From a virus: a stretch of 39,143 nucleotides of DNA. Shown one piece after another: positions 3,051 through 37,435 of the stretch. The stretch's first letter is position 1, and each line of letters begins with the position of its first letter. A program made the translations under genes and the position numbers. The stretch lies in the IMG/VR virus record IMGVR_UViG_3300020201_000052, positions 1-39,143 of that record, one strand, 5' to 3'. Below the pieces are notes generated by a model, which was not told the DNA's origin, did no database searches, and saw only the letters and a list, made by a program, of their open reading frames with translations.

Positions 3051-3079
3051 AGAGGGCGGTCCTAGACCGCTCTCTTTTC
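3051..3079 (+). terminator. Rho-independent terminator-like hairpin
   Basis: AGAGGGCGGTC (3051-3061) pairs with GACCGCTCTCT (3065-3075) with one G-U wobble and a 3-nt loop, followed by a T-rich stretch (TTTCTCTT). It sits between the small protein and the DUF6378-like gene. The following ribosome-binding segment (ACTGCAAGGAGG) is the same as that before the polymerase. Confidence 0.65.
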
Positions 3080-3107
3080 TCTTCACCTAACTGCAAGGAG
3101 GCCGAGA

Positions 3108-3404
3108 ATGAGTAAGTGGAACCCAGACCAAGCGCTCGATTGCTTAGGCGAATCGAGCAGTATCGTCAACGGCGATAGGCGAATCGAGTACGGCACCCCG
3201 CTCGACAATCACGAGCGGACGGCGAAGATGTGGACCGCCTATCTCGGGGCACGCATATCTGCCGAAGATGTCTGCATGATGAACATCCTCCAGAAGATCT
3301 CTCGCAACGCCTTCAAGGAGAAGCGGGACAACATCGTGGACATCATCGGCTACGCGGCGAATTACGACTTGGTGAAGCGGGAGCGGGAGTATAGGGGAGA
3401 ATGA
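3108..3404 (+). CDS. DUF6378-like small phage protein
   Basis: A 98-aa protein with the pattern RRIEYGTPLDNHERTAKMW near residues 24-42, then AEDVCMMNILQKISR and DNIVDIIGYAANYD. This order (a 'YG.P..N..R.A..W' stretch, a helix with ILxKIxR, then DNxxDIxGYA) matches a family of small phage proteins of unknown function that I know as DUF6378-like; the Asp and Glu residues on predicted helices recall all-alpha NTP pyrophosphatase-type proteins. A strong AAGGAGG precedes the ATG. The stop overlaps the start of the RuvC gene (ATGA), so the two are probably co-translated. The family resemblance is from memory; the biochemical role is unknown. Confidence 0.75.
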   Translation: MSKWNPDQALDCLGESSSIVNGDRRIEYGTPLDNHERTAKMWTAYLGARISAEDVCMMNILQKISRNAFKEKRDNIVDIIGYAANYDLVKREREYRGE

Positions 3405-4009
3405 GCTACTATCTCGGTATCGACCCGGACCTGCACCACGCCGGGATCGCGTTGCTCAACTCGAAGAGTGGCGAAGGCAGGCTTTGGGTTGCGAAAGCTC
3501 CTAGCAAGCTGAAGGGAGAGGAAGCCAACGTAGCGATGGCGCAGTCCCTACGACATATCGTGCTTGTCTTGGGCTGGGTCGATTCGGTCGATTCGGTCGA
3601 TTCGGTCGAAATTGTCATAGAGTCCCAGAAGATCCGTCCGGGAACTTCCGTGAATCCTCAAGACATCGTGATGCTTGCTCAAGCTGCGGGGGTCGCTGTG
3701 GGAGTCCTTTCTGGCTTGTCTGACAACATCTCCCTGGTACAGCCGCAGGACTGGAAGGGATCCATCCCCAAGGAGGCCCACCACGCAGTCATCCGCGAGC
3801 ACTACCGGATCGAGAAGGGGCAGCTTGGGCCGCACGAGAGCCACTTGCTCGATGCCGTGGGTCTCGCAGCCTGGGGCTGGCTCAGAGACTCACTACCGAG
3901 GTCTCCCGATCGAAACCCTCAGTCAAGGCTTCTAGGTAGTGTGCTATCGAAACAGCGACTAGCTCGTCTACCACGCCTGAGTCTAGAACTTGTTGCCACG
4001 CTCGGGTGA
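3401..4009 (+). CDS. ruvC: RuvC-like Holliday junction resolvase
   Basis: An RNase H-fold nuclease expected to resolve branched DNA before packaging. The 202-aa protein begins YYLGIDPDLHHAGIALL, the typical RuvC first strand with catalytic D8. The second acidic residue lies in EIVIESQK (E74), and the last acidic cluster is HESHLLDAVGLAAWG (H145, D151). Just before the E74 strand there is an in-frame run of three VDS units encoded by a 9-bp tandem repeat (3581-3607). The last ~40 codons overlap the converging minus-strand gene and are rich in Arg/Ser/Leu; they come after the conserved core and may be dispensable. Start supported by the ATGA overlap with the upstream gene. Confidence 0.85.
   Translation: MSYYLGIDPDLHHAGIALLNSKSGEGRLWVAKAPSKLKGEEANVAMAQSLRHIVLVLGWVDSVDSVDSVEIVIESQKIRPGTSVNPQDIVMLAQAAGVAVGVLSGLSDNISLVQPQDWKGSIPKEAHHAVIREHYRIEKGQLGPHESHLLDAVGLAAWGWLRDSLPRSPDRNPQSRLLGSVLSKQRLARLPRLSLELVATLG
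3581..3607 (+). repeat. 9-bp tandem repeat inside ruvC
   Basis: Three exact head-to-tail copies of GATTCGGTC, flanked by partial copies (GGTC before, GA after). The unit keeps the frame and encodes Val-Asp-Ser. Copy-number change would add or remove three residues without a frameshift. Confidence 0.9.
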
Positions 4010-4442
4010 AGAAGAACTCGCCAGCGACCGGACCAACGCTGCGGGTGACCACCATGATCGGTGGGGCACCCGCCTTCTTTCGCACTCGGTTCTCCTCGCG
4101 GAAGAGCTTGTATTCGTCCGTAGATAGCGATTTGCGATCTCCGCGCGTCTTCGGGTAGTTCGTACCGTAGCTCGTGCGCGGATCGTCCCGACGATCAGGG
4201 AAGAAGATCATGTATTTCCCTGCCGGGAGGTCGATCCGCTTTCGTCCATCGTGGACGAACTTGGCCCAGAAGTAGGGCAGCTTCAGCGTGATCTTCGCCA
4301 CGCCTCCAGGGACCCCGATGTCCACTTCGAACGTCAGCTCGCGCCGCAGCGTCGCGGAGCCCATGAGCCCCGTGGACTCCAACTGCACGATGTCCCCAAT
4401 CGCCTTGTAGGTGGTCTCCTTGACGCGATCGAGCAGGGTCAT
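3882..4442 (-). CDS. Putative head-tail/minor tail protein (HK97 gp10-like by position)
   Basis: A 186-aa protein starting 2 nt after the portal stop, so the two are one transcriptional unit. Central features are LPYFWAKFVHDGRKRID, then a Lys/Arg-rich stretch, and near the end FFFTRAWQQVLDSG. A 'surface, H-G-R, ..., FF..A' layout recalls HK97 gp10-type neck or tail-completion proteins, in which the chain binds the tail terminator region. I could not match it with certainty. It runs convergently into ruvC and the coding regions overlap by 128 nt at their 3' ends, which is unusual for phages. The minus frame uses normal codons throughout, so I consider both genes real. Confidence 0.65.
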   Translation of the reverse strand: MTLLDRVKETTYKAIGDIVQLESTGLMGSATLRRELTFEVDIGVPGGVAKITLKLPYFWAKFVHDGRKRIDLPAGKYMIFFPDRRDDPRTSYGTNYPKTRGDRKSLSTDEYKLFREENRVRKKAGAPPIMVVTRSVGPVAGEFFFTRAWQQVLDSGVVDELVAVSIAHYLEALTEGFDRETSVVSL

Positions 4443-4444
4443 CC

Positions 4445-5845
4445 TCAGTCCTTCACGCCCGCTGAGAGGTCGCGCCCGCTGGCCGAGGCAGCGGGCGTCC
4501 GCATCCGGCTCATCGTGTCCATCTCCTTGAGCCCTGGGGCAGCGCCGGTCGTCTGCGCGCCCATGCCGAGCGGGATCTCCTCGGTGACTTTCTTGAACAC
4601 GAAGTCAGCCTTCTTGAGCCCGAGGCCGCTGTTGTGCTCCTTGTTGCCCAGGGTCGAGCCGAGGATCGCAGTGAACGTGACTTGCTCAGGACCGATCACG
4701 AGCACCTGGAAGGCCAGGAGCGCGTTCGGCAGCTCGTTGACCGCACCGAGCTTGCCAGAGATCTGAATGCCTGCCAGGAGCGGGGGCGTCCTGTGCGCGG
4801 TCACGATGTCGAGCGAGAGCGCCTCGCGCAGATCCGAGAGCCCGGCGCTGCCTGCGTCCTCCATCGCGAGCTTCTCGACTTGGATCTTGGCAAGCTCTGA
4901 ATCGACGTTGATCGCCATCGTCTTGTGCTGGTTACCCAAGCCGATCGTGTTCTGGATCCCGTTCTCGATCTTCTCCCACGTCTTGCCATCGATCTTCGCG
5001 CCCGAGATGAACAGGATGAACTCAGGCACGCCTCGGTTGAGGAAGAAGTCGTACCGCTCCTGCGTCATCATCTGCACCAGCTCGATGCTGGCAACCGCCG
5101 AGAGCCAGTCAGGGAAGCCGTACCAGCGCGACATCGACGTGCGGCGCGCGAAGTGGATGATCTCGCTGCGCTCCGAAGGTGTGCCGTAGCTGTTGTAGAC
5201 GCTTCGATAGTCAACGGTGGTGTCGGGTACGCCGTTGCTGTCAACCGATTCGCCGTTCAAGCGTGCGAGGAATTCTTCCAGCTCCCCGTAAGGAGCCATG
5301 ACCCTCGGGGAAGATCCTTCGCCTCCGCTCTCTCCTACGATGTAGTGGCGGCGGTACTCGATGTCCTCGATGCACACCTTCACCGTTGCAGCCGGAACGT
5401 GGTGGAGGCCCTTGACCTTGCCGCCATCGTCACGAACGACTTCCATATAACCGTTGCCTACCTGCCAGTAATCCTCAGCAACGCTGTCCAGCACTTCCAT
5501 GAACGTGCTGTCGCACAACGGATCCAACAGGTCGGTAGCTTTGTCCGTCGTGAATCCGAGTCCGGTCATCGCTCTCGACTTCGCTTCGATGCACGTCGAG
5601 TGGTGTACGTTCTGGTTCTTGAACGCGATGGCCGCAGCCATGTTGAAGGGGTGCTCCTTCACTCCAAGGTTCACGCCCTGGTCACTCGCCTGATCGGGCC
5701 GGTCCTCGGGAGAGTGCGTCTTGAAGAGCACCTCGGCCCAAGTCTTCATTCCCTCCTTGGCAGTCGAATCGAAGATGTCGCGGTGCTCGCTGTGCCCTCT
5801 TACGACCCGGACCTCAGTGGTTTCCGTGCTACCCGTATCACTCAT
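4445..5845 (-). CDS. Portal protein
   Basis: A 466-aa protein of the phage portal family, forming the dodecameric channel through which DNA enters the head. Diagnostic parts are FNMAAAIAFKNQNVHHSTC near the N-terminus, DYWQVGNGYMEVVRD (the 'GN.Y.E' strand of portals), HHVPAATVKV, then HFARRTSMSRWYGFPDW, and a long C-terminal helical segment (TAHRTPPLLAGI). Length fits PBSX/HK97-type portals. It is on the minus strand, divergent from the protease gene (58-nt gap), while capsid and tail genes are on the plus strand and the terminase is 24 kb away. A short AGGAAG lies upstream of the ATG. Confidence 0.9.
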   Translation of the reverse strand: MSDTGSTETTEVRVVRGHSEHRDIFDSTAKEGMKTWAEVLFKTHSPEDRPDQASDQGVNLGVKEHPFNMAAAIAFKNQNVHHSTCIEAKSRAMTGLGFTTDKATDLLDPLCDSTFMEVLDSVAEDYWQVGNGYMEVVRDDGGKVKGLHHVPAATVKVCIEDIEYRRHYIVGESGGEGSSPRVMAPYGELEEFLARLNGESVDSNGVPDTTVDYRSVYNSYGTPSERSEIIHFARRTSMSRWYGFPDWLSAVASIELVQMMTQERYDFFLNRGVPEFILFISGAKIDGKTWEKIENGIQNTIGLGNQHKTMAINVDSELAKIQVEKLAMEDAGSAGLSDLREALSLDIVTAHRTPPLLAGIQISGKLGAVNELPNALLAFQVLVIGPEQVTFTAILGSTLGNKEHNSGLGLKKADFVFKKVTEEIPLGMGAQTTGAAPGLKEMDTMSRMRTPAASASGRDLSAGVKD

Positions 5846-5903
5846 CGGTGCTTCCTAGACGCGGGGCCTTGCATTGCAACGCAAACCCTAACATCCTCAG
5901 ATC
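5846..5903. promoter_or_regulatory. Divergent intergenic region between portal and protease genes
   Basis: Only 58 bp separate the two divergent start codons, so promoters for both directions must lie here or within the flanking genes. It contains an inverted repeat-like patch, TTGCATTGCAACGCAA. No clear -10/-35 pairs were recognised. Confidence 0.35.
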
Positions 5904-6941
5904 ATGCGGCGCATCAAAAAGGTCACGGTCAAGTGCCTGAGCCTGTGCAAGCGCGGGGCCAACCAGCTTCCAGTGCTCTACAAGGCCGAAGACGGCACCG
6001 TGGAGATCCAGACGCTCACGAAAGCCCTCCCTGACTTCGAGGAGCGTGGCGAGCTGCTCGTGGTGGGCTACGCCCCCGAGCACCGAGACAGCCAGGGCGA
6101 CATCGCGGACGCTGCCGTGTGCAAGGAGATGGCCCACACCTTCATGCACGAGGGCGCGAACCTCGACATCCGCCACGACGGCAACCTGATCTCGCGCGAG
6201 CGCGCGTTCGTGGCCGAATCCTTCATCATCCAGAAGGACGATCCCCGCTTCGTTGACTTCAAGGACTACTCCGGCAAGCCGGTAGACGTCACGAACGGCT
6301 GGGGCGCGCTCATCAAGATCGAAGACAAGGAACTTCGAAAACTCTTCAAGTCCGAAGGGTGGAACGGAGTTTCGTTGAGTGGTCCTGCCGAACTAGAACC
6401 CGACGATTCGGTGCGTAAGGCGCTGGATCACTTCAGACAGTCACAGGAGTATGAAATGAAGCCCGAAGAACTGGCGGAAGTTCTGCGAAAGAACAACGAG
6501 GCGCTCGTAGCGGCTCTCCGTCCCGCGCCTGTCGCGCCCGCCGCACCTACCATCGCTGATCCCTCGGCTCCTTCCTTCACGGGCGATCCGCTCAAGAAGG
6601 AAGACGTGGAGAAGTACGCGCGCGAGCTGAAGTCGTACCAGCTTCGCAAGAGCGTGGACTGGAAGGACACCAACGCCGTCGATGCGTACCTCGCGACGCT
6701 CACGAAGGGTCCTGGCGATGACGACGATGACGACGTTGCCGACGATGCGGACGACGACGCACCCGCTCCGAAGGTCAAGAAGGAGCAACGTCGCAGCGAT
6801 CAGCCGACCACGGACGGCGCGCGTCGCAAGTCGAAGGTGCCCGAGGAGATGCAGGGCATGAATCTTTCCAAGGAAGAACTCGAAGGCTTCGAAATCGGTA
6901 AGCGGATGGCTGACTGGGCCAACACGCAAGGAGTGAAGTGA
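5904..6941 (+). CDS. XkdF-like prohead protease fused to a scaffolding domain
   Basis: A 345-aa two-part protein. Residues ~45-165 resemble XkdF-type serine proteases: PEHRDSQGDIADAAV, then LDIRHDG (H91 probable catalytic His), VAESFIIQKDD, and WNGVSLSG (S157 probable nucleophile). Residues ~185-345 are highly charged, with a Pro/Ala linker, an Asp-rich run near 273-290 and a helical end, as expected of a scaffold that is digested during head maturation. The ATG at 5904 is the first start after an in-frame stop; it lacks a good Shine-Dalgarno. An internal start at 6456 could yield the scaffold alone. The gene lies just before the decoration and capsid genes, the usual position. Confidence 0.85.
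   Translation: MRRIKKVTVKCLSLCKRGANQLPVLYKAEDGTVEIQTLTKALPDFEERGELLVVGYAPEHRDSQGDIADAAVCKEMAHTFMHEGANLDIRHDGNLISRERAFVAESFIIQKDDPRFVDFKDYSGKPVDVTNGWGALIKIEDKELRKLFKSEGWNGVSLSGPAELEPDDSVRKALDHFRQSQEYEMKPEELAEVLRKNNEALVAALRPAPVAPAAPTIADPSAPSFTGDPLKKEDVEKYARELKSYQLRKSVDWKDTNAVDAYLATLTKGPGDDDDDDVADDADDDAPAPKVKKEQRRSDQPTTDGARRKSKVPEEMQGMNLSKEELEGFEIGKRMADWANTQGVK
6456..6941 (+). CDS. Scaffolding protein from an internal in-frame start
   Basis: In the protease gene, CAGGAG (6444-6449) sits 6 nt before an in-frame ATG at 6456 (M185). This site looks stronger than that of the full-length gene. Translation would give a 161-aa protein (MKPEELAEVLRKNNEAL...) made only of the charged scaffold part. Nested scaffold genes of this kind are known from lambda (C/Nu3). 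The ribosome site and frame are seen; use of the start is inferred. Confidence 0.6.
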   Translation: MKPEELAEVLRKNNEALVAALRPAPVAPAAPTIADPSAPSFTGDPLKKEDVEKYARELKSYQLRKSVDWKDTNAVDAYLATLTKGPGDDDDDDVADDADDDAPAPKVKKEQRRSDQPTTDGARRKSKVPEEMQGMNLSKEELEGFEIGKRMADWANTQGVK

Positions 6942-6945
6942 TCCC

Positions 6946-7347
6946 ATGGCATACGCAGTCAACAACCTCGTTTCGGCAGCCACCACGCGCGGCCCCTCGC
7001 TTCGGGTCATCCCGATCTCGATCCACCCGAAGACCCTCGCCAACGTCGCAGCGGCTCCGCTCTATCCGACGCTGACGCCGATGGCGTTCAACACGGCCAC
7101 GGGCTTCTGGGTTGTCTGGGCTACCGGCGGCGCGAACGGCACGGGCTCGATCGGCGGCTTCCTCGCGGAACCGACGCAGACGGACGCCGTGGGCGAAGTG
7201 CTCGCCAACATGCTCATGGAAGCCAAGATCCACGCTGGGGACATCCCCACGCCTGCGGGTCAAACGCTCGCCAACCTTCGAATCGCTCTCCGAGTGGGGA
7301 TGCGCGCTCTCGGCTTCGACATCAGCGGCCTCGATGATGTCCACTAA
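6946..7347 (+). CDS. Probable head decoration protein
   Basis: A 133-aa protein, beta-rich and Gly/Ala-rich, starting 5 nt after the protease stop. The central part TGSIGGFLAEPTQTDAVGEV, followed by MEAKIHAGDI, has the look of small lambda gpD-type or similar capsid-stabilising proteins, whose genes lie between the protease/scaffold and the major capsid gene. It is assigned mostly by position, with size and composition agreeing. It ends with TAA, showing that TAA is a normal stop here. Confidence 0.7.
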   Translation: MAYAVNNLVSAATTRGPSLRVIPISIHPKTLANVAAAPLYPTLTPMAFNTATGFWVVWATGGANGTGSIGGFLAEPTQTDAVGEVLANMLMEAKIHAGDIPTPAGQTLANLRIALRVGMRALGFDISGLDDVH

Positions 7348-7378
7348 CCGCACACCCAACTAGGAAACAACAACCAAC

Positions 7379-8434
7379 ATGGCACTCCCTGTTCCGGCAA
7401 CGACCTGGACCTCGATGACCTCGGCGGTCAACTTGATGAAGCCGCCGGGGAGGTTCGTTACGAACCTCCTCAACATCTCCGAGGAGATCCTCTCCACCGA
7501 AACCATCGAGATCGGCACCTACCGCTCGGAGCGCGACGTTGCGCCCTTCGTGCGCGTCCATGCCGAGGCCGAGATGGTCAAAGGTCTGGGCGAGGAGCTG
7601 TACGTCGTCCAGGCTCCCAACATCCGCATCAAGCGGCCCTTCCGCCCGAGCGAACTCCTCTGGGGTCGCCGCGTGGATTCGGTCATCTACCCGACCTCCA
7701 GTCAGGTGACTTCTGCGGTCGAGCGGCACATCGCCAAAGATCTCCAGCACATGGAGAACATGATCGTCAACGCCGAGGAGTGGATGGCCGCGATGGCCCT
7801 TCGCGGCTCGATCACCTACTCGGTCAAGGACCAAGAGGTGTTCACGATCACGTTCCCGCGCGCTGGCTCGCACTCGATTACGCCTGCGATCTTCTGGGAC
7901 GACGCCACGCCCGCCAGCATCACTGCGATCACCTCCATCCGCTCGATCCTCGCCCTCGTGGCCGAGGACGTGGGCATGGGCGTCACCGATGCGATCCTGG
8001 GCAGCGAGGCAGCGGCGCAGTTCGTGAAGCTGCCCGAGCTGCTGGCGACGATCAAGACGGACTCCGGCATCACGGCTGGTAACGTCGATCTGACCCAGAA
8101 GTACCGTGCTGACGGCGCGATCTTCCTGGCGCGCTGGCTCGGCATCAACTGGTGGGAGTACCCGCGCAGTCTGATGATCGACGGCGTTGCGACGGCCCTG
8201 ATTCGTCCCAAGTACGTCGAGTTCATCTCGGCTGGCTCGGGCCAGTGGACTCGCTACTACGGTGCGATCCCCGACATGGACGCCCTCGAAGGTCGTCGCA
8301 TGGCAGCGAAGCGTTTCGCGAAGAGCTGGAAGCAGCCCGACCCGAGCGCCCTGATCGCCCTCCTCCACAGCCGTCCCCTGGTTGTGAACCGTGTTCCTGA
8401 CAGCACCGTGTCCTTCAAGGCCGTCTCGGGCTGA
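7379..8434 (+). CDS. Major capsid protein, lambda gpE-type
   Basis: A 351-aa HK97-fold capsid protein. The sequence follows the gpE family layout: N-terminal TSAVNLMKPPGRFVTNLL, a middle part PNIRIKRPFRPSELLWGRRV, a long helix with RHIAKDLQHMENMIVNAEEW ending in a conserved ALRGSI, then ITFPRAG, and a C-terminal half with IFLARWLGINWWEYP and ALIRPKYVEF. Length is normal for the family. It follows the decoration gene after 31 nt and precedes connector genes, the canonical head order. No protease-removed N-terminal scaffold segment is present, in keeping with a separate scaffold encoded upstream. Confidence 0.9.
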   Translation: MALPVPATTWTSMTSAVNLMKPPGRFVTNLLNISEEILSTETIEIGTYRSERDVAPFVRVHAEAEMVKGLGEELYVVQAPNIRIKRPFRPSELLWGRRVDSVIYPTSSQVTSAVERHIAKDLQHMENMIVNAEEWMAAMALRGSITYSVKDQEVFTITFPRAGSHSITPAIFWDDATPASITAITSIRSILALVAEDVGMGVTDAILGSEAAAQFVKLPELLATIKTDSGITAGNVDLTQKYRADGAIFLARWLGINWWEYPRSLMIDGVATALIRPKYVEFISAGSGQWTRYYGAIPDMDALEGRRMAAKRFAKSWKQPDPSALIALLHSRPLVVNRVPDSTVSFKAVSG

Positions 8435-11709: not shown

Positions 11710-14700
11710 CAAGCGGCGGGTTTGAATACATCATCGAGATTCGCGACCAGTTCGCGAAGCCGATCGCTGAGTTCCAAGCCGCCATTGCAGAAGCCAAGAA
11801 GACAGTAGCCGCGCTCAAGAAGGAACTGGGCGGCCTTGGTGACGCTTCGAAGGAAGCCAAGGCCGCTCTCGGCGGCAACGCGACGGAGATCAAGGCCGCT
11901 ACCAAGGCGCAAGAGGACTACGCCGCTGCCATCGGGAAGGCGACTGCCAAGCAGCGCGCCCAGATGACCGAGGACCAGAGGGTCGAGGACTCCCTCAGCA
12001 AGAAGATCGAGCGACGCGCACACGCTGCCCGAGTAGAGGAGCAGGCAGCCGAACAGGGCATCAGCCTCTCCAAGAAGCGCGTCGTCGCCGCCAAGGAAGA
12101 GGCGACGGTCGAGGATCGGGTCAACGCGATCATCGCGCGCCGGGCGGAGCTAGAGGAGACCAACGCCGCGCTGCGCGGGCGCGGCTTCGATCCCAAGGGC
12201 GCGGACACTCGCCAGCGGGTCGAGGAGATCATTGCCGCACGGAAGGACCTCCAGGACACCAACACCGAGCTGCGTAGCCGTGGGGTCGATGCCAAAGGCG
12301 CGACCACCGAGGCGCGCGTCAACGAGATCCTCGCACGTCGGAACGAGCTGCTCGCGCAGAACAACCTGCTGGAGCAGAGGGGATTCGATCCGAGAGGCAA
12401 CGCGCTTCTCTCCGAGAAGGCGACGATCCAGAAGCGGATCAACGACATCATCGCTCGGCAGGCCCAGCTCCTAGCAGTCAATGCTGGTCTCAAGGCACAG
12501 GGGTTCGACCCTCGTGGCAACGCACTTCTCTCTGAAGCTGGGACGATCCAGAAGCGCGTCAACGACATCATCGCCCGACAGAACCAACTTCTTGCGGTCA
12601 ATGAGCGCCTGAAGCGGCAGGGATTCGACCCGCGCGGGAATGCGCTCCTCTCCGAAGAAGCGACGATCCAGAAGAGGATCAACGACATCATCGCGCGGCA
12701 GACCAAACTGCGTGCGATCAACGCTGGGCTCAAGGCGCAGGGACTCAATCCGCAGGGCAACAAGTTCCTGACGCCCCAGGAGATAGGTGCCGATCAAGCC
12801 GCTGCCAAGTTCCGGAGCCTCCAGATCCGGAAGTTCCGCCAAGAAGCCGAGAGGGCCAACCCGGCGCTGGCGCAACTGCGTCGCGACCTGGGCTTGACCG
12901 AATCGGCTGCCAACCGCATCAGCTTCACCTTCCGTCGCCTCTTCGGGATCATGGCCGCGTTCACCGTGGCACGGCTGGCATTCGCGAAGCTCAAGGAAGC
13001 GATCGTCAGCTCGGTCGCGTTCAACGCCACGATCGAGACCTCAGCCCTGGGCATCGCTTCCCTGGTAGCCGCCACGGGGCAGATCCGAACCGCCACGGGG
13101 CGCGCGGCAGACGCTACCGAGGGTTGGGGGCTCGCCCAGGCAGAAGCGCGCAGACAGCTCGTACTGCTCCGCAAGGATGCGCTGACGACAGCAGCGACCT
13201 TCCCAGAACTCATCAGCGCGTTCCAGACCGCGATCGGTCCGGGTCTCTCTGCGGGCCTGAATCTCGACGAGGTACGGAAGTTCGCATCCGTGATCTCGAA
13301 GGCGGCTTCGGCGCTGGGCGTGGAGCAAGTCCAGCTCGCAGAGGAGATCCGCTCGATCCTCCAGGGCACGATCACCAAGCGCAACACCAGGATCGCCACT
13401 TCGCTTGGGATCTCGAACGATGACATCGCCCGAGCGAAGGAGATGGGCGTCCTGTTCGAGTTCCTGGAGACGCGCTTCCAGGCGTTCAACAAGGCGAGCG
13501 AGGACGGTGCCAAGACCTTCACGGTCCTGCTCTCGAACGCCAAGGATGCGATCTCGAACCTTCTGGGACTGAGCTTCACGGGGCTCTTCAACGAGCTGAA
13601 GACGTTCCTGACGGTCATCAACCGAAGCATCGTCAACATCGAAGATGCCTCGATCAATCCGGCGCTGGTGAAAGCGTTCTCGGCCATCGGGGAAGTGCTG
13701 TCGCTGGCGGTCAGCGAGTCCACGAAGATCATCACCACGCTCTCGGCTGGTGGTGCGGAGAGCACCTTCGAGGGCATCGCGATCATCCTGAAAGGCGCAG
13801 TCATCCTCGCTTCAGACCTGATCCAAGGGATCCTGAAGGGCGCTCGCATCGCGGCAGCGATCCTCTCCCCGATCATCGCCGTGGCACGCGCCATCGCAGA
13901 CGTGCTCGGCCCTACGGTCAACCAGATCCTCATCTGGGGCGTGGCGCTGACGGTGGCGTTCAAGCTCGTGCTGGCTTCGACGATCGGCCTGTACGGCTAT
14001 CTGGTGAAGTCGGTAGTCCAGCTCGGCCTGATGCAACTCCTCTCGCTGGGGCTTGCGCGCAACATCTCCGCTGCTGATGCCTCAGTCGGGAAGATGACCG
14101 CTGGTACGTTCACCCTGAGCACGTTGTGGACCGCGATTAGTGCGAAGATCGCAACCGCGTTTACCGCTGTCAAGGCGTTCCTCGCCGTCTGGGGGCTCAC
14201 GCTCCTGGGCGTGGCTGCGGTCGGCCTCGAAATCAAGCTGCTTGGGGACGAGCTGGAACGCGCGAGCGGCAAGACTGCCTCCCTCGGTGCGCTGCTAAAG
14301 GCGACGATCTATGGCGTAGGAGAAGTTATCCTGTTCGTCGGCAGGACCATCCTCGACTTCTTCGAGACATCCATCCGAACGGTTATCTCTCACATACTCT
14401 CGTTTCAGTTGTCTGTGGGCAAGCTGCTCTCCAGGCTTGCTGACATCGCAGGGAAGATTCCTGGAGGGGAAGTAGCGGCAGCCCTGCTAAAAGCCAGGAT
14501 TGCTCAGGTGTCGAAAGCGTTCGAGGACTTCCAGACCAAGGTTGACGCGACCGATGGGTTCAGCGGCTTTGCTGACAGGGCCGATGAGAACTTCACGAGG
14601 GTCGGGCAACGTACCGTAGACTACTACTCGGAGCTGGCTGACGGAGAAGCCGAGGCAGCCGCACGGACGAACTTCTGGGACAACATCCCGGCGCTGATCT

Positions 14701-29757: not shown

Positions 29758-29994
29758 CTAGGCGGTCTCGGGGCGGCACGGTTCTCGGTGTGTCTCCGTT
29801 GCCGCCCCTTTTTTCTTCCTCATCTGCCTAGCCACCGTACTCGCGTGCCCCTTCGCTTCCTGAGGGAACATCTCAGCAACGATCGTGAATTTGCGCCCGC
29901 AGACCACGCACACCCCGCTCTGCGTCTTATGAGTCCCCTCGACCACATAGACATGCGTAACGTCAACCCTGCCGTTGTCGTGCGGGCACCTCAT
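29758..29994 (-). CDS. Small zinc-ribbon protein
   Basis: A 78-aa protein with a CPHD motif at the N-terminus (C3, H5) and CVVCGRKF near residues 29-36, with VYVVEGTHKTQSG between. A CxH/C...CxxC spacing of this length fits a zinc ribbon like those at the N-termini of NrdR and Ogr/Delta regulators. The rest is a basic tail. It overlaps the terminase stop by 4 nt, so it is made with the packaging motor; it may regulate late genes or assist packaging. Role is inferred. Confidence 0.65.
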   Translation of the reverse strand: MRCPHDNGRVDVTHVYVVEGTHKTQSGVCVVCGRKFTIVAEMFPQEAKGHASTVARQMRKKKGAATETHREPCRPETA

Positions 29995-31445
29995 CTTCGG
30001 GTCTCGAATCGGTTAGTCCTCGGCAGCGCAACCGATGCAACTTGGGTGTCCGCTTCCACCTCATCGTAGTAGCACATCACCACGGCATCTGCACGGTCAG
30101 GCGAGGGGAATCCTCGCTTCATATACTTGTCCTTGGACTCCACGCGCACGCGACCCCTGGAGTCGATGTCGTACTGCCTCGTCGTAAGCTGCTGGATCAG
30201 AATCGGATCGTTTTTCAGCAAAACAGCCGATTTCTTGCACTTCTGAGCGAACGTGAACCACGCTTCGGTGATCTTGTCGGAGTATTCTCGGCTTCTGCGA
30301 GCGTTCTGTTGTGCCTTGAATTCGTGGACAGTGCGCCCTGATTCCTTGAAATCGACCATCACCGAGTCACCTAGGCCGTTGGCGTCGGCACAAAATGCCG
30401 CTTGTTCGTTCGTCCAGCCTGCTTCTAGCTGCTTTTTGAAGGCCAGCTTATTGATATGCCTCGGTTCCGTGTGCGGATAGAACTCCAATCCCATCAACGC
30501 CTGCCCGCTGCGCCACGCGATGACGTTTTCGTCGCCACCGAAGCGCGCGTAGTCGATCCCGAACTGCTTTGCTGGGGCGATCTTGCCTGCGAACTTGCGC
30601 GGAACCCGCATCGCATCGTAAAGCGGCGTTCTCAGGCACCTTTCCACTTCTTCGACCGAAATGATGCAGTTTGGGTCCATGTGCGGGAACTCTCCCAGCA
30701 CGCGGACCCTGAAAACGTCCGAATCTCGACCGTAAGTATCGATAATGAACTGGATTTGATCCTTCGAAGTGAGCGGGGAGTCCTCGGAGTTGAACGTCAT
30801 GCACGTCCAACGGGCTCTCTCGCTTGAGAAGAAGCGAAAAAAGCCGCAGTCGCGCAAGTTTGGGTTACCGACAGCGATTTCCATCGAGTTCTGGTTCGTC
30901 AGGGTGCCTGCGATAGCCTCCAGGAACGGGTCTTCGATGCCTGACGCTTCATCCAGGATGAATGTCAGGTTCTCTTGGTGAATTCCTTGAATCGCCTCAG
31001 GTTTGGTAGCAGTGACGAAGCCGATTCTCCACTTCTCTCTCCCGGCGAGCACGATCTGGCTCTTCGTGGGTTTGAAGAGCCTCCGCATCAGCGGGTTCCG
31101 AGCGTTGTCCAGGATGCGACCGAACTCGGTGAGCCACTGGCGGCACTGGCGCATGGTCGGAGACGTGACCATCGTGAGCGCATCGACGTGCTGGAACGTC
31201 CTCCAGGCCCCTGCGATGCACGTCCCGGCGCTCTTCCCGACACCGTGGCCGCTCTTGGCCGCGATGCGGGGGCTGCCTACCTGGACCGCCTGGAACAGCT
31301 CCGCCTGCTGCGGCGTGGGATCGACCCCCATTGCCTCGGAGAATTTGAAAATGTCTTCTCGAAGAGGACGGTAGAAGTCACCGAGGCGCGTTTCGAGGGC
31401 TGATGCCACGGTATCACGTTGCCAGGATGTTGTTGAGTGCCGCAC
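29991..31445 (-). CDS. terL: Terminase large subunit
   Basis: The 484-aa DNA-packaging motor. Walker A SGHGVGKSAG (near residue 65), the Walker B strand LTFILDEASGIED and a coupling stretch (IAVGNP) mark the ATPase; the C-terminal RNase H-type nuclease has GIDYARFGGDENV, AFCADANGLGDSVMVDF and SPDRADAVVM carrying its three acidic positions. Full length for the family. The GTG at 31445 is the first possible start after an upstream in-frame stop; no strong ribosome site seen, and a GTG at 31409 is possible. It lies among receptor-binding and lysis genes instead of beside the portal, and no small subunit was recognised. Confidence 0.95.
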   Translation of the reverse strand: MRHSTTSWQRDTVASALETRLGDFYRPLREDIFKFSEAMGVDPTPQQAELFQAVQVGSPRIAAKSGHGVGKSAGTCIAGAWRTFQHVDALTMVTSPTMRQCRQWLTEFGRILDNARNPLMRRLFKPTKSQIVLAGREKWRIGFVTATKPEAIQGIHQENLTFILDEASGIEDPFLEAIAGTLTNQNSMEIAVGNPNLRDCGFFRFFSSERARWTCMTFNSEDSPLTSKDQIQFIIDTYGRDSDVFRVRVLGEFPHMDPNCIISVEEVERCLRTPLYDAMRVPRKFAGKIAPAKQFGIDYARFGGDENVIAWRSGQALMGLEFYPHTEPRHINKLAFKKQLEAGWTNEQAAFCADANGLGDSVMVDFKESGRTVHEFKAQQNARRSREYSDKITEAWFTFAQKCKKSAVLLKNDPILIQQLTTRQYDIDSRGRVRVESKDKYMKRGFPSPDRADAVVMCYYDEVEADTQVASVALPRTNRFETRR

Positions 31446-31530: not shown

Positions 31531-33186
31531 CTAGACTGCTAGAATCGCATTCATCTGAGCACGCAGAGCAGCCGCAACAGCGAGCGTGGCTGACGAAGGC
31601 GCTCCCGCAAGCAGGTTGGCGCTCTCAGGCTGTCGGAAGCCCGAGTAGCCGTTGCCTGCGTTGCTCGCGTGCAGGAAGAGCTTCTCCGTGACCGTGGTGC
31701 CGCCCTGGCGAACGAAGCTGTGGACCCCATCGGAGACGGCGGCATTGAGCTGCGAGGGGGAAGAAACGTACCGTCTTGTGGCCGGGTCCCAGCCGTACCC
31801 GGCGTACTGCCCCCCGTTCATCGAGTAGAGCAGCGTGCGCTGGGTCGGGACCGTTTTGTCTCTGAGGTGGCCGATGATGCCCACGCTGTCCTTAGGCCGC
31901 TCTCCGTTGAGCAGGTTGGCATCAGCTCCTGCGGGATAGACCTTGCAGATGTCTCGGATCAGCTTCCCGATGTCAGGAGTACACACGAAGGCGTTCGAGA
32001 TGCGCGGGGCTTCGCCGCAGATCGCGCCTCCGATGAACAGCGGACAGTTCACGCCGCCACGGTAGACGAACCGCTTGGCACGATCGACTGCGAACGGCGC
32101 TTCCACGCAGTCCCCGCTGGTGCCGTTGTCCGTGAGAACGATGAAGATTGTCTTCGTGTACTGCCCGTTGGCCTGAAGCACCGAGACGACTCGCCCGAAC
32201 ACCTCATCTGCGGATTCGATGCAGTGCTTCTGGCACATCACCCGCTTGGCGATCTCTGTCGGATCTGCGGAGTTAGGATAGTTGTGGTTTGTGCCAGCAG
32301 CCGGGTACGCCTCTCCGAAAGCCGTAGTCCAGTCCGCGACCGACAAGGCCGAGATCGCGCCCACGCCGGTCGTCGGCGGGGATTGGTAGACCGCGTGCCC
32401 GACGCTCGGTGCCCACCAGAGGAAGAACGAACGATCAGCCGCCGCTGCATCGTCCAGGAACTCCGTCATGTCCGTCAGCTCACGCGCGGGACCGTACTCC
32501 GTTATGAGGTCGGCGGTGATGGTGATCTCGTCAGTATCTACGTCTCGTACGTTGGTGATATACTGCCAGTTCACAAACTGATCCGAGAGGTTCATCTGAT
32601 GACCCTTGAAGATGTCCCAGCCCTCTCCTCTCGTACACCAGTCATAGTTGTCTAGCTGTGCTGTGTGGCTCTTGCCGATCTTAGCATTCCGATAGACCCT
32701 GTTCGGCCTCCCGTTCCTGATCGCGGTCGGTAGGCATTGGATCAGTTGCGGAACACGGTTCTGTTTGTCTAGTGGATCTTGCCCGAGGTAGAAATTACCA
32801 CTCTCAACTCCGGGGTTCTCCGTGATGTTCGTGAAAAGCCCGTGGTGGTGCGGCCACATCTCGCTGCTGATGCCTGCCCTGGTAGGTCCGCAGGTCGGGT
32901 TGGCCCAGAAGTTGTTGAACGTCACTCCCCGATCCTGCACATGGGTTCGGATGTTGTGGATTCGGATGACTTGTCCGGAGTAGCCAGTGATCCCTACATA
33001 GCTGTTGAACTTCTCCAGCCCAACGTCATCGAGGATCACCACCACGACGTTGTAGTCGTACGGCACCTGACTGATGGCGGCTGCTACTGCATCCGGTGCA
33101 TCCTCTACCGAGATGCCGGTAGGGCCTAAGGCGACGCTGCCTTTGACCGCTCCGGTAGTTCCGCTGGGTGCGTTTGTTACGGGCAT
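31531..33186 (-). CDS. Type I sulfatase (formylglycine-dependent)
   Basis: A 551-aa enzyme of the alkaline phosphatase/sulfatase superfamily that should hydrolyse sulfate esters. Active-site parts are in the family order: VVVVILDDVGLEKFNSY (metal ligands D53, D54), NPTCGPTRAGISS (C99-x-P-T-R, the site turned into formylglycine), GKSH (172-174, in the place of GKWH), PSVGHAVYQSPP (H264), LTDNG (D353, N354) and YRGGVNCPLFIGG. No signal peptide; residues 1-45 are a flexible Gly/Ala/Val leader. It lies between a beta-helix spike and the terminase, both on the same strand, so it is likely a virion enzyme acting on a sulfated surface glycan. Activity depends on a maturase not encoded in this window. 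Confidence 0.9.
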   Translation of the reverse strand: MPVTNAPSGTTGAVKGSVALGPTGISVEDAPDAVAAAISQVPYDYNVVVVILDDVGLEKFNSYVGITGYSGQVIRIHNIRTHVQDRGVTFNNFWANPTCGPTRAGISSEMWPHHHGLFTNITENPGVESGNFYLGQDPLDKQNRVPQLIQCLPTAIRNGRPNRVYRNAKIGKSHTAQLDNYDWCTRGEGWDIFKGHQMNLSDQFVNWQYITNVRDVDTDEITITADLITEYGPARELTDMTEFLDDAAAADRSFFLWWAPSVGHAVYQSPPTTGVGAISALSVADWTTAFGEAYPAAGTNHNYPNSADPTEIAKRVMCQKHCIESADEVFGRVVSVLQANGQYTKTIFIVLTDNGTSGDCVEAPFAVDRAKRFVYRGGVNCPLFIGGAICGEAPRISNAFVCTPDIGKLIRDICKVYPAGADANLLNGERPKDSVGIIGHLRDKTVPTQRTLLYSMNGGQYAGYGWDPATRRYVSSPSQLNAAVSDGVHSFVRQGGTTVTEKLFLHASNAGNGYSGFRQPESANLLAGAPSSATLAVAAALRAQMNAILAV

Positions 33187-33191
33187 GGGCT

Positions 33192-35264
33192 CTAGCTAGA
33201 ATACTTGGTAGTGACTTGCAGTTGATCGATTGACCAGTTGCCTTCGAAGGCGCGATACTTGTACCCGTTGAGGGTGATTTCCATGTCCCAACGTCCGGCC
33301 AATACCTGCCCGACAACCTGCTCGGTTTCGTTGCGCATGAGGTGCAACCAAATCTTGCCGGTCGTCCTGAGTGGGTCCAGGTAGACCAGGGGGACTGGGC
33401 AGCCCGTCTTGACCCCGGTGGGCAAGGCCGCGGTACGGAACTCGCACTGGATGTCCGTGGCGACGACCACGGCGGTCAGGTCTACGATCGTGCCATCGAT
33501 GTCGCGCAGGACCAGCCCGAGGAAGTAGTCGCTGCCTTGGACGATCTGGAGGATGCCGCTCAGGTCCACCTTCTCGGGCAGGACCACGATCTCGGGGCTG
33601 CCGGTGATCGGCGCGATCCCGCCGCCGGGGTACTCGAACGCTCCGATGTCCCAGGCAAGCTGTGGGCCTGCGGGTCGGTTCGTCCAGTCGTAGTCGAACC
33701 AGACCGGCAGCGTCGTGCCCGTGTCGATGCAGGGGCTCGTGGGCTGGAGCCGGAAGTTCCCGCCCGATTCGTTCTCGAAGAGCGGATCCAGGAGGTAGTT
33801 CGTCGCCGTGACGACCGGCCCAGGGCCAGTGGTGACGTTGACGCTCGTGATGAGCGAGCGGACGATGTTGTTCTGGACCGAGACGGAGTTGATGCCGTTG
33901 TTTTCGACGAAGTGCCACGTTCCACCCGCCGATGTCGAGCGGTAGACGGTGTTGTTGTGGACTCGTACTTCGGTCGGGTAGGGGTTGTTGATCCCCCGGC
34001 GGTCCACCTCGATCGTGCCGCCCCAGTTAGCGCCCGAGTGATCGAAGATGTTGTTTCGGACATCGACCTTGCTGGCCCAGCACTCGATGAACCGGCTGAC
34101 CGCTGACCCCGGCGTGGCGATCCTGAAGTAGTTGCCCTCGACCAGCACGTTCTCGACGAAGCGCGGGTACTCCGCAGTTCCCTCGGGTCCCAGCTCCATG
34201 ACCCAGGTGGTGCCGCCGTCTGCCGTGAACGAGTTGTCCGTGACGCAGACGAGGTGAGTCTTGAGCGGCGGGAGCAAGCCCATCACCCGCAGCATGGTCG
34301 AATTGCACAGGCCGAAGACGTTGCTCTGTACCGCTGACCGACAGGCGTACGACCGGAAGTGCGCTTGGTTTCCTCCTGCCTGTGTGAACTTGTTGTTCAA
34401 CAGAGCCAAGTAGTCCAGCGTCGTTAGGTCAGCACCACTCGATGCGTAGACTCCGTAGTTTACTTGGTTCGAGAAATCGTTCCCCGCGAATACCACGCCT
34501 GTTTTCGCAGCGCCGTATACCTGTGTTGCGATTACGAAGCTGTCGATCTGGTTGCGATACAGTAGTCCGTAGGACCCAAGCTCAATCCCGATCTCACAGC
34601 TAGTGTTGCCCTTGATGTTCATGTCCAGGATCCTGAGATCCGTGACATCGGCAGTCAGGTTGAACCATGTATCCGAGGGTCCTACGGTAGAGTAAGTGAC
34701 GTTCAGGATCGGGTTGGCTCCTGAGCCATACGCTCCGATCTCGAACGGCCCGGTCTTGCCGGTTGTCGCGACGGCAGTTGAGACGGTCCAGTTCTCGCCT
34801 CGGTTGAAGAGCATCCTGCGTGGGCCGTTGGAGGCCAGCAGGATTGTCATGGCGTAGTCGAAGGTCTGGAACGGTGCGGCGGGGCTCAGGCCGTCGTTGG
34901 CGTTCGACCCGGTTGCGTTCGAGACGTAGTAGGTCTGGTTGGCCGGGTAGGTGGCGTTCTGCGCGGTGACGGTGACGACTTGGGTGTGGGTCTCGGTCGT
35001 GCCGTCTTCTTTCGTGATCGTGCAGGTTGCCGAGTAGGTCCCTGAGGAATCGAAGACGACTGCGGCGATGGGGCCGGTTGCTTTGCTCAGGCTCTTGCCG
35101 CTGTGGCTTGCTCCTGGAGCTGATAGGGCGTTGCCGAAGTTCCAGCGGTAGTCGAAGAGGTTGTAGTTCCCTCCTGTCGGTTGTGTGGTTCCGCTGGCTG
35201 GCGCTGCGGCGTCGAAGATTACGGCCAGGGGGGCGACGCCGGTGATTCTGTTTGCGAGTGCCAT
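33192..35264 (-). CDS. Tailspike: PKD domain, right-handed beta-helix, C-terminal attachment domain
   Basis: A 690-aa protein in three parts. Residues 1-100 form a PKD-like domain (GVAPLAVIFDAA; FDYRWNFGN; FDSSGTYSATCTI). Residues ~105-560 begin YYVSNATGSNANDGLSPAAP, the typical start of parallel beta-helix lyase-like spikes, then show repeated N/V/G rungs (NNPYPTEVRVHNNTVYRSTS). Residues ~575-690 match the tail-fiber domain with QGSDYFLGLVLRDIDGTIVD, ...TGKIWLHLM..., and a terminal W-D strand, also seen in the gene upstream. It probably binds or cuts the host's surface polysaccharide; no catalytic residues can be assigned by eye. Confidence 0.85.
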   Translation of the reverse strand: MALANRITGVAPLAVIFDAAAPASGTTQPTGGNYNLFDYRWNFGNALSAPGASHSGKSLSKATGPIAAVVFDSSGTYSATCTITKEDGTTETHTQVVTVTAQNATYPANQTYYVSNATGSNANDGLSPAAPFQTFDYAMTILLASNGPRRMLFNRGENWTVSTAVATTGKTGPFEIGAYGSGANPILNVTYSTVGPSDTWFNLTADVTDLRILDMNIKGNTSCEIGIELGSYGLLYRNQIDSFVIATQVYGAAKTGVVFAGNDFSNQVNYGVYASSGADLTTLDYLALLNNKFTQAGGNQAHFRSYACRSAVQSNVFGLCNSTMLRVMGLLPPLKTHLVCVTDNSFTADGGTTWVMELGPEGTAEYPRFVENVLVEGNYFRIATPGSAVSRFIECWASKVDVRNNIFDHSGANWGGTIEVDRRGINNPYPTEVRVHNNTVYRSTSAGGTWHFVENNGINSVSVQNNIVRSLITSVNVTTGPGPVVTATNYLLDPLFENESGGNFRLQPTSPCIDTGTTLPVWFDYDWTNRPAGPQLAWDIGAFEYPGGGIAPITGSPEIVVLPEKVDLSGILQIVQGSDYFLGLVLRDIDGTIVDLTAVVVATDIQCEFRTAALPTGVKTGCPVPLVYLDPLRTTGKIWLHLMRNETEQVVGQVLAGRWDMEITLNGYKYRAFEGNWSIDQLQVTTKYSS

Positions 35265-35270
35265 GTGGGG

Positions 35271-35786
35271 TCAGGGAATGACCAGCGGGTCAGTGACTTC
35301 GGTATCGATGGTCCAGGTCCCGGTGACGGCGCGTTGGACGGACCGTGAGCTGTTGCCGCTGGCTGCGCCACCGATGGAGGACAGGTCGAGGTTTTGGTCC
35401 ATGACCTGGATGTCGAAGACCCCGCTGCCTGAGAAGGCTTGGGCGTTCTTCGTACCCCGGTGATTCACGAGCAGGAAGAAGTCCAGCTCGGGCACGACGA
35501 CGTGGATCTGTCCCCCTACGCCCCCGTTCAACCATTCGGAAAGGGCTTTGGATCCTGCTGGGACAATCCCACTGGCTGCTTGCGCTTGCGGCCAGTCACC
35601 AGGGATGATGCCACCAGCGGTGCGGCTCAGGTTACTGAACCTGATGTGCGGGAGAACGAGCGCGTACTGGCTCATGTCCTTCGGCAACCCGTTTTCCAGC
35701 ACTGTGAAAACGAACGTGTTGTCCGATCCCCGAACCAACTTTATTGCGACTACGGTTGGACGGAGCGTCTCGATCAGGTTGGGCAT
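35271..35786 (-). CDS. Tail attachment protein with the same fiber domain as the spike
   Basis: A 171-aa protein, MPNLIETLRPTVVAIKLVRG, with a beta-sandwich layout: RGSDNTFVFTVLENGLPKD, IRFSNLSRTAGG, GVFDIQVMDQN and VTGTWTIDTEVTDPLVIP. The order (charged G-S/D start, polar strands, 'F/W-D-I/L-x' then 'G-T-W-x-I' and 'V-T-D') parallels the C-terminal domain of the beta-helix spike, indicating paralogous structural modules. It is encoded just before the spike and may form the base on which spike and sulfatase are mounted (inference). Confidence 0.7.
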   Translation of the reverse strand: MPNLIETLRPTVVAIKLVRGSDNTFVFTVLENGLPKDMSQYALVLPHIRFSNLSRTAGGIIPGDWPQAQAASGIVPAGSKALSEWLNGGVGGQIHVVVPELDFFLLVNHRGTKNAQAFSGSGVFDIQVMDQNLDLSSIGGAASGNSSRSVQRAVTGTWTIDTEVTDPLVIP

Positions 35787-36656: not shown

Positions 36657-36730
36657 AGGGGCCGGGATAGCACTATGGGCTCGACTACGCAAGGGCGGTG
36701 CGCCTTCCGGCAAGGTCCCGCTCGCGAACA

Positions 36731-36909
36731 CCTGCACGGGGGAAAAATAGCCCCGCATTTCCTGCACACCTGCACAGGGGAAAAATAGCCCCCGGGAAAA
36801 AATCACCCCGCATTTCCTGCACACCTGCACAGGGGAAAAATAGCCCCGCATTTCCTGCACATCTGCACAGGGGAAAAATAGCCCCCGGGAAAAAATCACC
36901 CCGCATTTC
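36731..36909. repeat. Two copies of a 93-bp composite repeat (A-B-A-B)
   Basis: A core (C/T)CTGCAC(A/G)GGGGAAAAATAG starts at 36731, 36769, 36824 and 36862, spaced 38, 55 and 38 bp. The 38-bp unit ends CCCCGCATTTCCTGCACA; the 55-bp unit carries an extra CCCGGGAAAAAATCACC. Inverted CCTG..CAGG arms and GGGG/CCCC arms occur in each unit. The array lies 75-255 bp upstream of the first minus-strand gene, so it could be its control region, a replication origin or a packaging site. Confidence 0.85.
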
Positions 36910-37435
36910 TAATATTGCCCCTTCCTCGCCTTACATATCTCTTACGTAGCGGTTGCAATCGGCGCGTGGCATGGCACAACATGTATAGCCAACATGCTCT
37001 ATGCATAGTGACTCTTATTGAATTATCGCATCCGTGCGTCTGGACTAATATGCATAGCCAACATGCTCTATGCATAGTGATTCTTATTGGACTATCGCAT
37101 CCGTGCGTCCGTGGACGATATTCGGAAAGTAATCTATCTTGATTTATAGCGATTTATAATAATAATTAGGCGAAGGTTCTCCCCGATGCCCTAATCACGC
37201 CGAATATTGAAATATGGTATCCAGGCCCGGAGGTCATTTACTTGTGAGGTATATTTAGGTCGCTTAGCGGGCTTCAAATGAAAGTTTCTAGGGTATCGAT
37301 AAAATATTAAATGACTAGTAAATTTTAGCTTCCGACCAATTCTGCGCTATTTTCCAGGCCGTTGCCATTAGTACCCGACAGGAACCCTAACGAGCTCTCT
37401 GTAAAAAAGACGTAAGGGGTCCGAATTGCCACAAA
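36910..37435. other. AT-richer gap without convincing genes
   Basis: About 525 bp of lower GC content with stops in all frames. It holds the 69-bp direct repeats (separate entry) and an AT-rich stretch near 37130-37165 with a TATAAT at 37155, which might be a -10 box or part of an origin. The drop in GC content from the neighbouring genes is visible by eye. Confidence 0.6.
36981..37118. repeat. 69-bp direct repeat carrying a CTATGCATAG palindrome
   Basis: Copies start at 36981 and 37050. Each has ATAGCCAACATGCTCTATGC, AGTG(A)(C/T)TCTTATTG, an AT-rich stretch and CTATCGCATCCGTGCGTC (first copy TTATCGCATCCGTGCGTC). The perfect 10-bp palindrome CTATGCATAG lies at 36999-37008 and 37068-37077. 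Operator or replication-protein sites are possible. Confidence 0.85.

Follow-up and report, generated by a model that had tools for sequence, protein, structure and literature searches.

A tailed phage gene for a predicted type I sulfatase, located beside a probable spike gene

The gene at positions 31531 to 33186 of the DNA analysed here almost certainly encodes a type I sulfatase with an alkaline-phosphatase-like fold. The assignment is based on the protein family, the predicted fold and the presence of all the catalytic positions; the activity itself is a prediction. The gene is located among tail and spike genes of a tailed phage, and a distantly related sulfatase domain forms part of a baseplate protein in another phage. 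We therefore put forward, tentatively and at slightly less than even odds, the suggestion that some tailed phages carry a virion sulfatase for entry, matured by the FGE of the host. It would be free-standing beside a spike in the phage studied here, and fused to gp46 in a Mu-like phage.

The sulfatase gene and its surroundings

The stretch studied (the window) is the whole of the IMG/VR viral record IMGVR_UViG_3300020201_000052, which has 39,143 bases and is classed as linear; no contig-end repeat was found in it. The contig is assigned to a tailed phage because it contains genes for portal, head protease, major capsid protein, tail assembly proteins and large terminase, all found with Pfam and PHROG profiles, together with a putative tape measure. 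The last of these has 1779 aa and no family match, and is probably a tape measure as judged by size and position. Relatives of the terminase and capsid proteins are 24-33% identical, and come from unrelated hosts. The portal gene (4445-5845) is a single minus-strand gene surrounded by head genes of the plus strand, and a long way from the terminase at 30-31 kb.

The sulfatase reading frame is unbroken from ATG to stop on the minus strand, and the plus-strand reading of the same span has stops. The initial annotation had proposed this gene without giving a strand, and the frame is real. It has a GC content of 0.60. Because it is similar to its neighbours and to the rest of the phage in GC content and codon use, it is not an obvious recent insertion.

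The gene forms part of a tight run on the minus strand (Table 1), in the order small protein, 6 bp, probable spike, 5 bp, sulfatase, 85 bp, terminase, which agrees with the position described earlier, with a spike gene on one side and the terminase on the other. The spike was recognized by its choice-of-anchor Q match; its PKD and beta-helix matches are below the Pfam cut-offs, and no phage match to it was found. The small protein possibly carries a tail-associated domain. A domain common to this protein and the C-terminus of the spike was also considered, and the match is very weak, too weak to be claimed.

Two repeat regions were noted elsewhere. Approximately three tandem copies of a 120-bp unit (74% matches) occur at 12380-12761 inside the probable tape measure gene and give rise to a 40-aa protein repeat. 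A low-GC stretch at 36728-37109 has near-perfect tandem repeats of 93 bp and 69 bp (93-97% matches), and is possibly a regulatory or replication site.

Table 1. Positions of the genes and predicted catalytic codons. Positions are those of the window, except in the last row.
Feature	Position	Strand	Evidence
Small protein upstream of spike, 6-bp gap	35271..35786	minus	Weak PHROG 1084 match (function not annotated)
Probable beta-helix spike, 690 aa, directly upstream of sulfatase, 5-bp gap	33192..35264	minus	NCBIfam choice_anch_Q, 33 bits, cut-off 25
Type I (formylglycine-type) sulfatase, 551 aa	31531..33186	minus	PF00884, 66.2 bits, E 3.9e-18; AlphaFold core resembles sulfatase structures, Z about 32
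D53-D54 codons, predicted metal ligands	33025..33030	minus	Both invariant against cellular set; in viral set D53 invariant, D54 nearly
Cys99 codon TGC, predicted formylglycine precursor in C-G-P-T-R	32890..32892	minus	Column invariant in viral set
K172-S-H174 codons (GK-x-H)	32665..32673	minus	Alignments with cellular and viral sulfatases
H264 codon	32395..32397	minus	Invariant in cellular and viral alignments
D353-N354 codons, predicted metal ligands	32125..32130	minus	Alignments with cellular and viral sulfatases
K371 codon, conserved active-site lysine	32074..32076	minus	Invariant in cellular and viral alignments
Terminase large subunit, next gene downstream of sulfatase, 85-bp gap	29991..31445	minus	PHROG 2 (terminase large subunit), 110.6 bits; phage tblastn matches
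gp46-sulfatase fusion, 720 aa	715-2874 of G008 = IMGVR_UViG_3300049483_000194 (22 kb)	minus	One in-frame protein

Family and catalytic residues

The window protein matches the Pfam Sulfatase family (PF00884) over residues 46-385, scoring 66.2 bits where the cut-off is 25 (E = 3.9e-18). The motifs listed in the initial annotation (D53/D54, C99-G-P-T-R103, G171-K172-S-H174, H264 and D353-N354) are all at the residues given there, and K371 can be added to them. In an alignment with eight bacterial and archaeal sulfatases, D53, D54, P101, R103, G171, K172, H264, D353, G355 and K371 are invariant. C99, H174 and N354 have counterparts in most of the eight, with Ser replacing Cys in the Ser-type enzymes. 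Against ten viral sulfatases, the invariant residues are C99, P101, R103, K172, H264, D353 and K371, and D54 and N354 are nearly so.

The metal pair D-N is found in many S1 sulfatases, whereas phosphonate monoester hydrolases have D-H. The window protein has D-N, and a sulfatase is therefore favoured over a phosphonate monoester hydrolase.

The core maturation motif C/S-x-P-x-R is present as C99-G-P-T-R103. The longer PROSITE-type signature that follows it (PS00523) is broken, having GISSEMW instead of an LLTGR-type stretch. The active site, which had been described as intact, is thus complete at every catalytic position, whereas this longer signature is not. The longer signature is not required of all type I sulfatases, and the C-x-P-x-R core by itself suffices for FGE in short tags. 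The degenerate stretch could weaken maturation of the window protein.

Predicted structure

The structure was predicted with AlphaFold using an alignment of 11 rows, all of them sulfatases; prediction from the single sequence gave a pLDDT of 32. The model has a pTM of 0.66, with pLDDT of about 75-95 in the best blocks of the core, and a helix begins at C99. The model is poor in residues 451-538 (much of 451-551) and in the loops 118-148 and 265-306. Foldseek places the model with sulfatases (E 8.7e-16), and VIA-align superimposes it on sulfatases with Z up to 32.4, over 330 aligned residues at an rmsd of 3.2. The predicted fold is thus that of a sulfatase, as had been expected, in a model whose input alignment itself consisted of sulfatases.

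A comparison with a library of predicted viral structures gave, at E <= 0.001, giant-virus sulfatase, phosphatase and phosphodiesterase entries. There is no phage row at this threshold, an absence that proves nothing.

Carrageenan, GAG and mucin sulfatases are among the best structural matches, and the substrate type is most likely to be a sulfated polysaccharide, as far as the model can suggest. The best PDB sequence match has an E of 6.6e-6, and structural matches within 1 Z unit include unrelated specificities.

Maturation and secretion

Type I sulfatases require conversion of the Cys to formylglycine, by FGE or by an anaerobic radical-SAM maturase, and in bacteria this takes place in the cytoplasm, while the chain is still unfolded. 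Genes for FGE (PF03781) and radical-SAM (PF04055) proteins are absent from the 39-kb contig. The host must therefore supply the maturase, unless one is encoded in a missing part of an incomplete genome; this is consistent with the dependence on a host maturase proposed previously. No strongly hydrophobic stretch was found near the N-terminus of the window protein, which consequently has no evident secretion signal, again as previously noted. This is compatible with maturation in the cytoplasm followed by virion assembly, and equally with a cytosolic enzyme.

A fusion of gp46 and sulfatase

Scans of IMG/VR for relatives revealed a protein in which gp46 and a sulfatase are fused (Table 1). The contig concerned, G008, comes from a myophage that resembles Mu. 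Its structural genes follow one another as portal, head protease/capsid, sheath, tape measure, hub and gp47-type baseplate, and the fusion gene stands between the baseplate hub and gp47 genes. Residues 2-128 of the fusion match the baseplate wedge family PHROG 180, and residues 28-127 match PF07409 with 87 bits. The sulfatase domain keeps the full catalytic set, in the form ICGPTRA, GKGH, PPHAP, DNG and SKR. BLASTP aligns it with the window protein in two segments (E 1e-10 and 1e-8). In a tree, the window protein groups with the fusion, the G006 sulfatase and a further viral sulfatase; the support is weak (80/71) and the branches are long.

The fusion was seen in one contig only, and because of this an assembly error is conceivable. 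The frame of 720 codons is unbroken and both domains are complete, which speaks against such an error. Distant in sequence though it is, the fusion provides the strongest hint that the sulfatase may be borne on the virion.

Other viral sulfatases

No match to the window protein was found at 1e-5 in the 50,697 phage records of INPHARED. The weak matches up to E 10 are mostly short alignments to tailspikes. Many of the INPHARED records that hold sulfatases look bacterial (one fecal record has them in seven places), and these were left out as phage sulfatases. Single-protein, alignment and pattern scans of IMG/VR and GTDB genomes gave no close relatives except the gp46 fusion, and a scan with a degenerate CGP pattern gave no true sulfatase among the matches listed.

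Two degenerate motif scans of IMG/VR gave 14 loci with profile-confirmed sulfatases, representing about eleven distinct proteins. This count is a lower bound, because both scans are biased towards GC-rich codons and the usual motif. Five other viral sulfatase lineages are located among verified head or tail genes. These are G001 (near terminase, portal and capsid), G005 (tape measure), G006/G009 (terminase, portal and capsid), G011/G014 (terminase and portal) and G008. In the window, in G006/G009 and in G011/G014, sulfatase and terminase share a strand, with the sulfatase upstream. By eye, the sulfatases of G001, G005 and G011/G014 have a signal- or lipoprotein-like start, and those of the window, G006/G009 and G008 do not. 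Phage sulfatases are therefore not all virion parts.

All six of the viral sulfatases that were scanned against PHROGs, including the window protein and the G008 fusion, match PHROG 19870, which is annotated as of unknown function and can on this basis be named sulfatase-like. It also includes a protein of Campylobacter phages A11a and A18a, sulfatase-like with C-x-P-x-R and of another lineage than the window protein. In A11a the gene is at 3058-4548, in a record marked UNVERIFIED.

Two further contigs have sulfatases in other settings. In G007 (IMGVR_UViG_3300048065_001187, a viral contig of 150766 bp), bases 60000-79000 contain three Sulfotransfer_2 genes and a sulfatase without a signal sequence, in a region that also has sugar epimerases and a glycosyltransferase and adjoins UvsX and DnaB. 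This is possibly a viral pathway for adding and removing sulfate on glycans. In G002 (a viral contig of 18042 bp, region 4062-8355), a signal-like sulfatase adjoins an 861-aa protein that has a match to the middle domain of hydrazine synthase alpha, and is also near a 1779-aa protein with no assigned function.

Comparison with known enzymes

The closest known enzymes are the type I sulfatases (PF00884; SulfAtlas S1), for example ZgCgsA (9hh2, an S1_19 carrageenan sulfatase), PsFucS1 (7aj0), human arylsulfatase A (1auk) and 4-sulfatase (1fsu). The window protein shares with this class the fold, the CxPxR cysteine, both Asp pairs, the Lys/His set and D-N, and is about 22-25% identical to the aligned cellular sulfatases. 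It differs from these in having no evident signal peptide, in being part of a phage gene run and in being degenerate after CxPxR. Several of the aligned cellular sulfatases adjoin their own maturase gene, which the window sulfatase does not. Like the window protein, the G008 fusion combines CGPTR with a complete catalytic set, lacks a signal sequence and has a phage tail context. Its sulfatase domain is joined to gp46, whereas the window sulfatase stands alone next to a spike, and the sulfatase parts of the two share about 28% identity when aligned globally.

Phage capsule depolymerases and deacetylating tail proteins cut or deacetylate the surface polymer of the host. The purpose proposed here for the window sulfatase is the same, namely remodelling of a surface polymer at entry. 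Unlike these enzymes, it would remove sulfate and need formylglycine made by the host.

Proteins with an FGE-sulfatase domain (PF03781) are maturase-like or lectin-fold proteins, not sulfatases. Such proteins are named in phage papers, including in connection with diversity-generating retroelements (PMC12724379, PMC11318856). They were rejected as a precedent, being a different domain despite the similar name and absent from the window contig. No report of a phage-encoded sulfatase in virions was found in the open-access literature. The enzyme family is old; the phage setting and the gp46 fusion appear to be new.

Possible function

The late operon would make spike and sulfatase together. From what is known of the family, a host maturase would oxidise Cys99 of CGPTR to formylglycine in the host cytoplasm; the hydrated formylglycine would attack the sulfate ester, with a divalent metal held by D53, D54, D353 and N354. 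Gene order and the relatives suggest that the folded sulfatase may be built into the tail tip, or bind to it. At the next cell it would strip sulfate from the capsule, slime or outer glycan of the host, and this desulfation would let the beta-helix spike alongside bind or cut the polymer beneath.

In our view, the chances are about even that the virion carries the sulfatase and uses it to remove sulfate from the host coat during entry. This reading draws on the operon position (5 bp after the probable spike, and upstream of the terminase), the missing signal sequence and the distant gp46 fusion. No tail-attachment domain was recognized in the window sulfatase with Pfam, PHROGs or NCBIfam. Of the earlier proposal of a phage sulfatase for entry, the identity as a type I sulfatase is upheld by family, alignment and fold, whereas virion location and desulfation at entry are inferred only.

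There are two main rivals. The first is a cytosolic auxiliary enzyme that is no component of the particle and acts on small sulfate esters within the infected cell, to obtain sulfur or to dispose of toxic esters. The lack of an evident signal sequence would suit such an enzyme, and sulfatases have been reported as auxiliary genes, 13 of them having been described on viral contigs or prophage regions of a fish-gut metagenome (PMC11077953). The gene is, however, in a tight run between the probable spike and the terminase rather than with genes for replication or metabolism. In addition, polysaccharides or aryl sulfates are the substrates of the closest solved structures, although a substrate does not follow from the fold alone. 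On balance we regard this rival as unlikely.

The second, also rather improbable, is that the enzyme is made late and released at lysis, free of the virion, to desulfate the coats or matrix of neighbouring cells. The gene run with the probable spike and the absence of any recognized anchor domain would both be expected in that case, whereas the distant relative has its sulfatase domain covalently within a baseplate protein.

The sulfatase superfamily includes promiscuous phosphonate monoester hydrolases. A different reaction (phosphonate or phosphodiester hydrolysis), or an inactive glycan-binding remnant, is suggested by the degenerate motif after CxPxR and by the presence of such a hydrolase (2w8s) among the structural matches, and is very unlikely given the sulfatase set of D-N metal pair, H264, K371, K172 and H174, a score of only 18 bits against a cut-off of 900 for the NCBIfam equivalog PehA (phosphoric/sulfuric ester hydrolase) and, for a remnant, the retention of all catalytic residues.

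The idea of a virion sulfatase is directly testable in the Mu-like baseplate by virtue of the gp46 fusion. If it is true, desulfation would join the short list of enzyme activities on phage tails. With a virion sulfatase matured by host FGE, infectivity would depend on whether the previous host had a maturase, and would therefore rest on a post-translational modification from the cell where the phage was made. Desulfation would also open a way into bacteria that have a coat of sulfated polysaccharides, and such phages would be a source of compact sulfatases.
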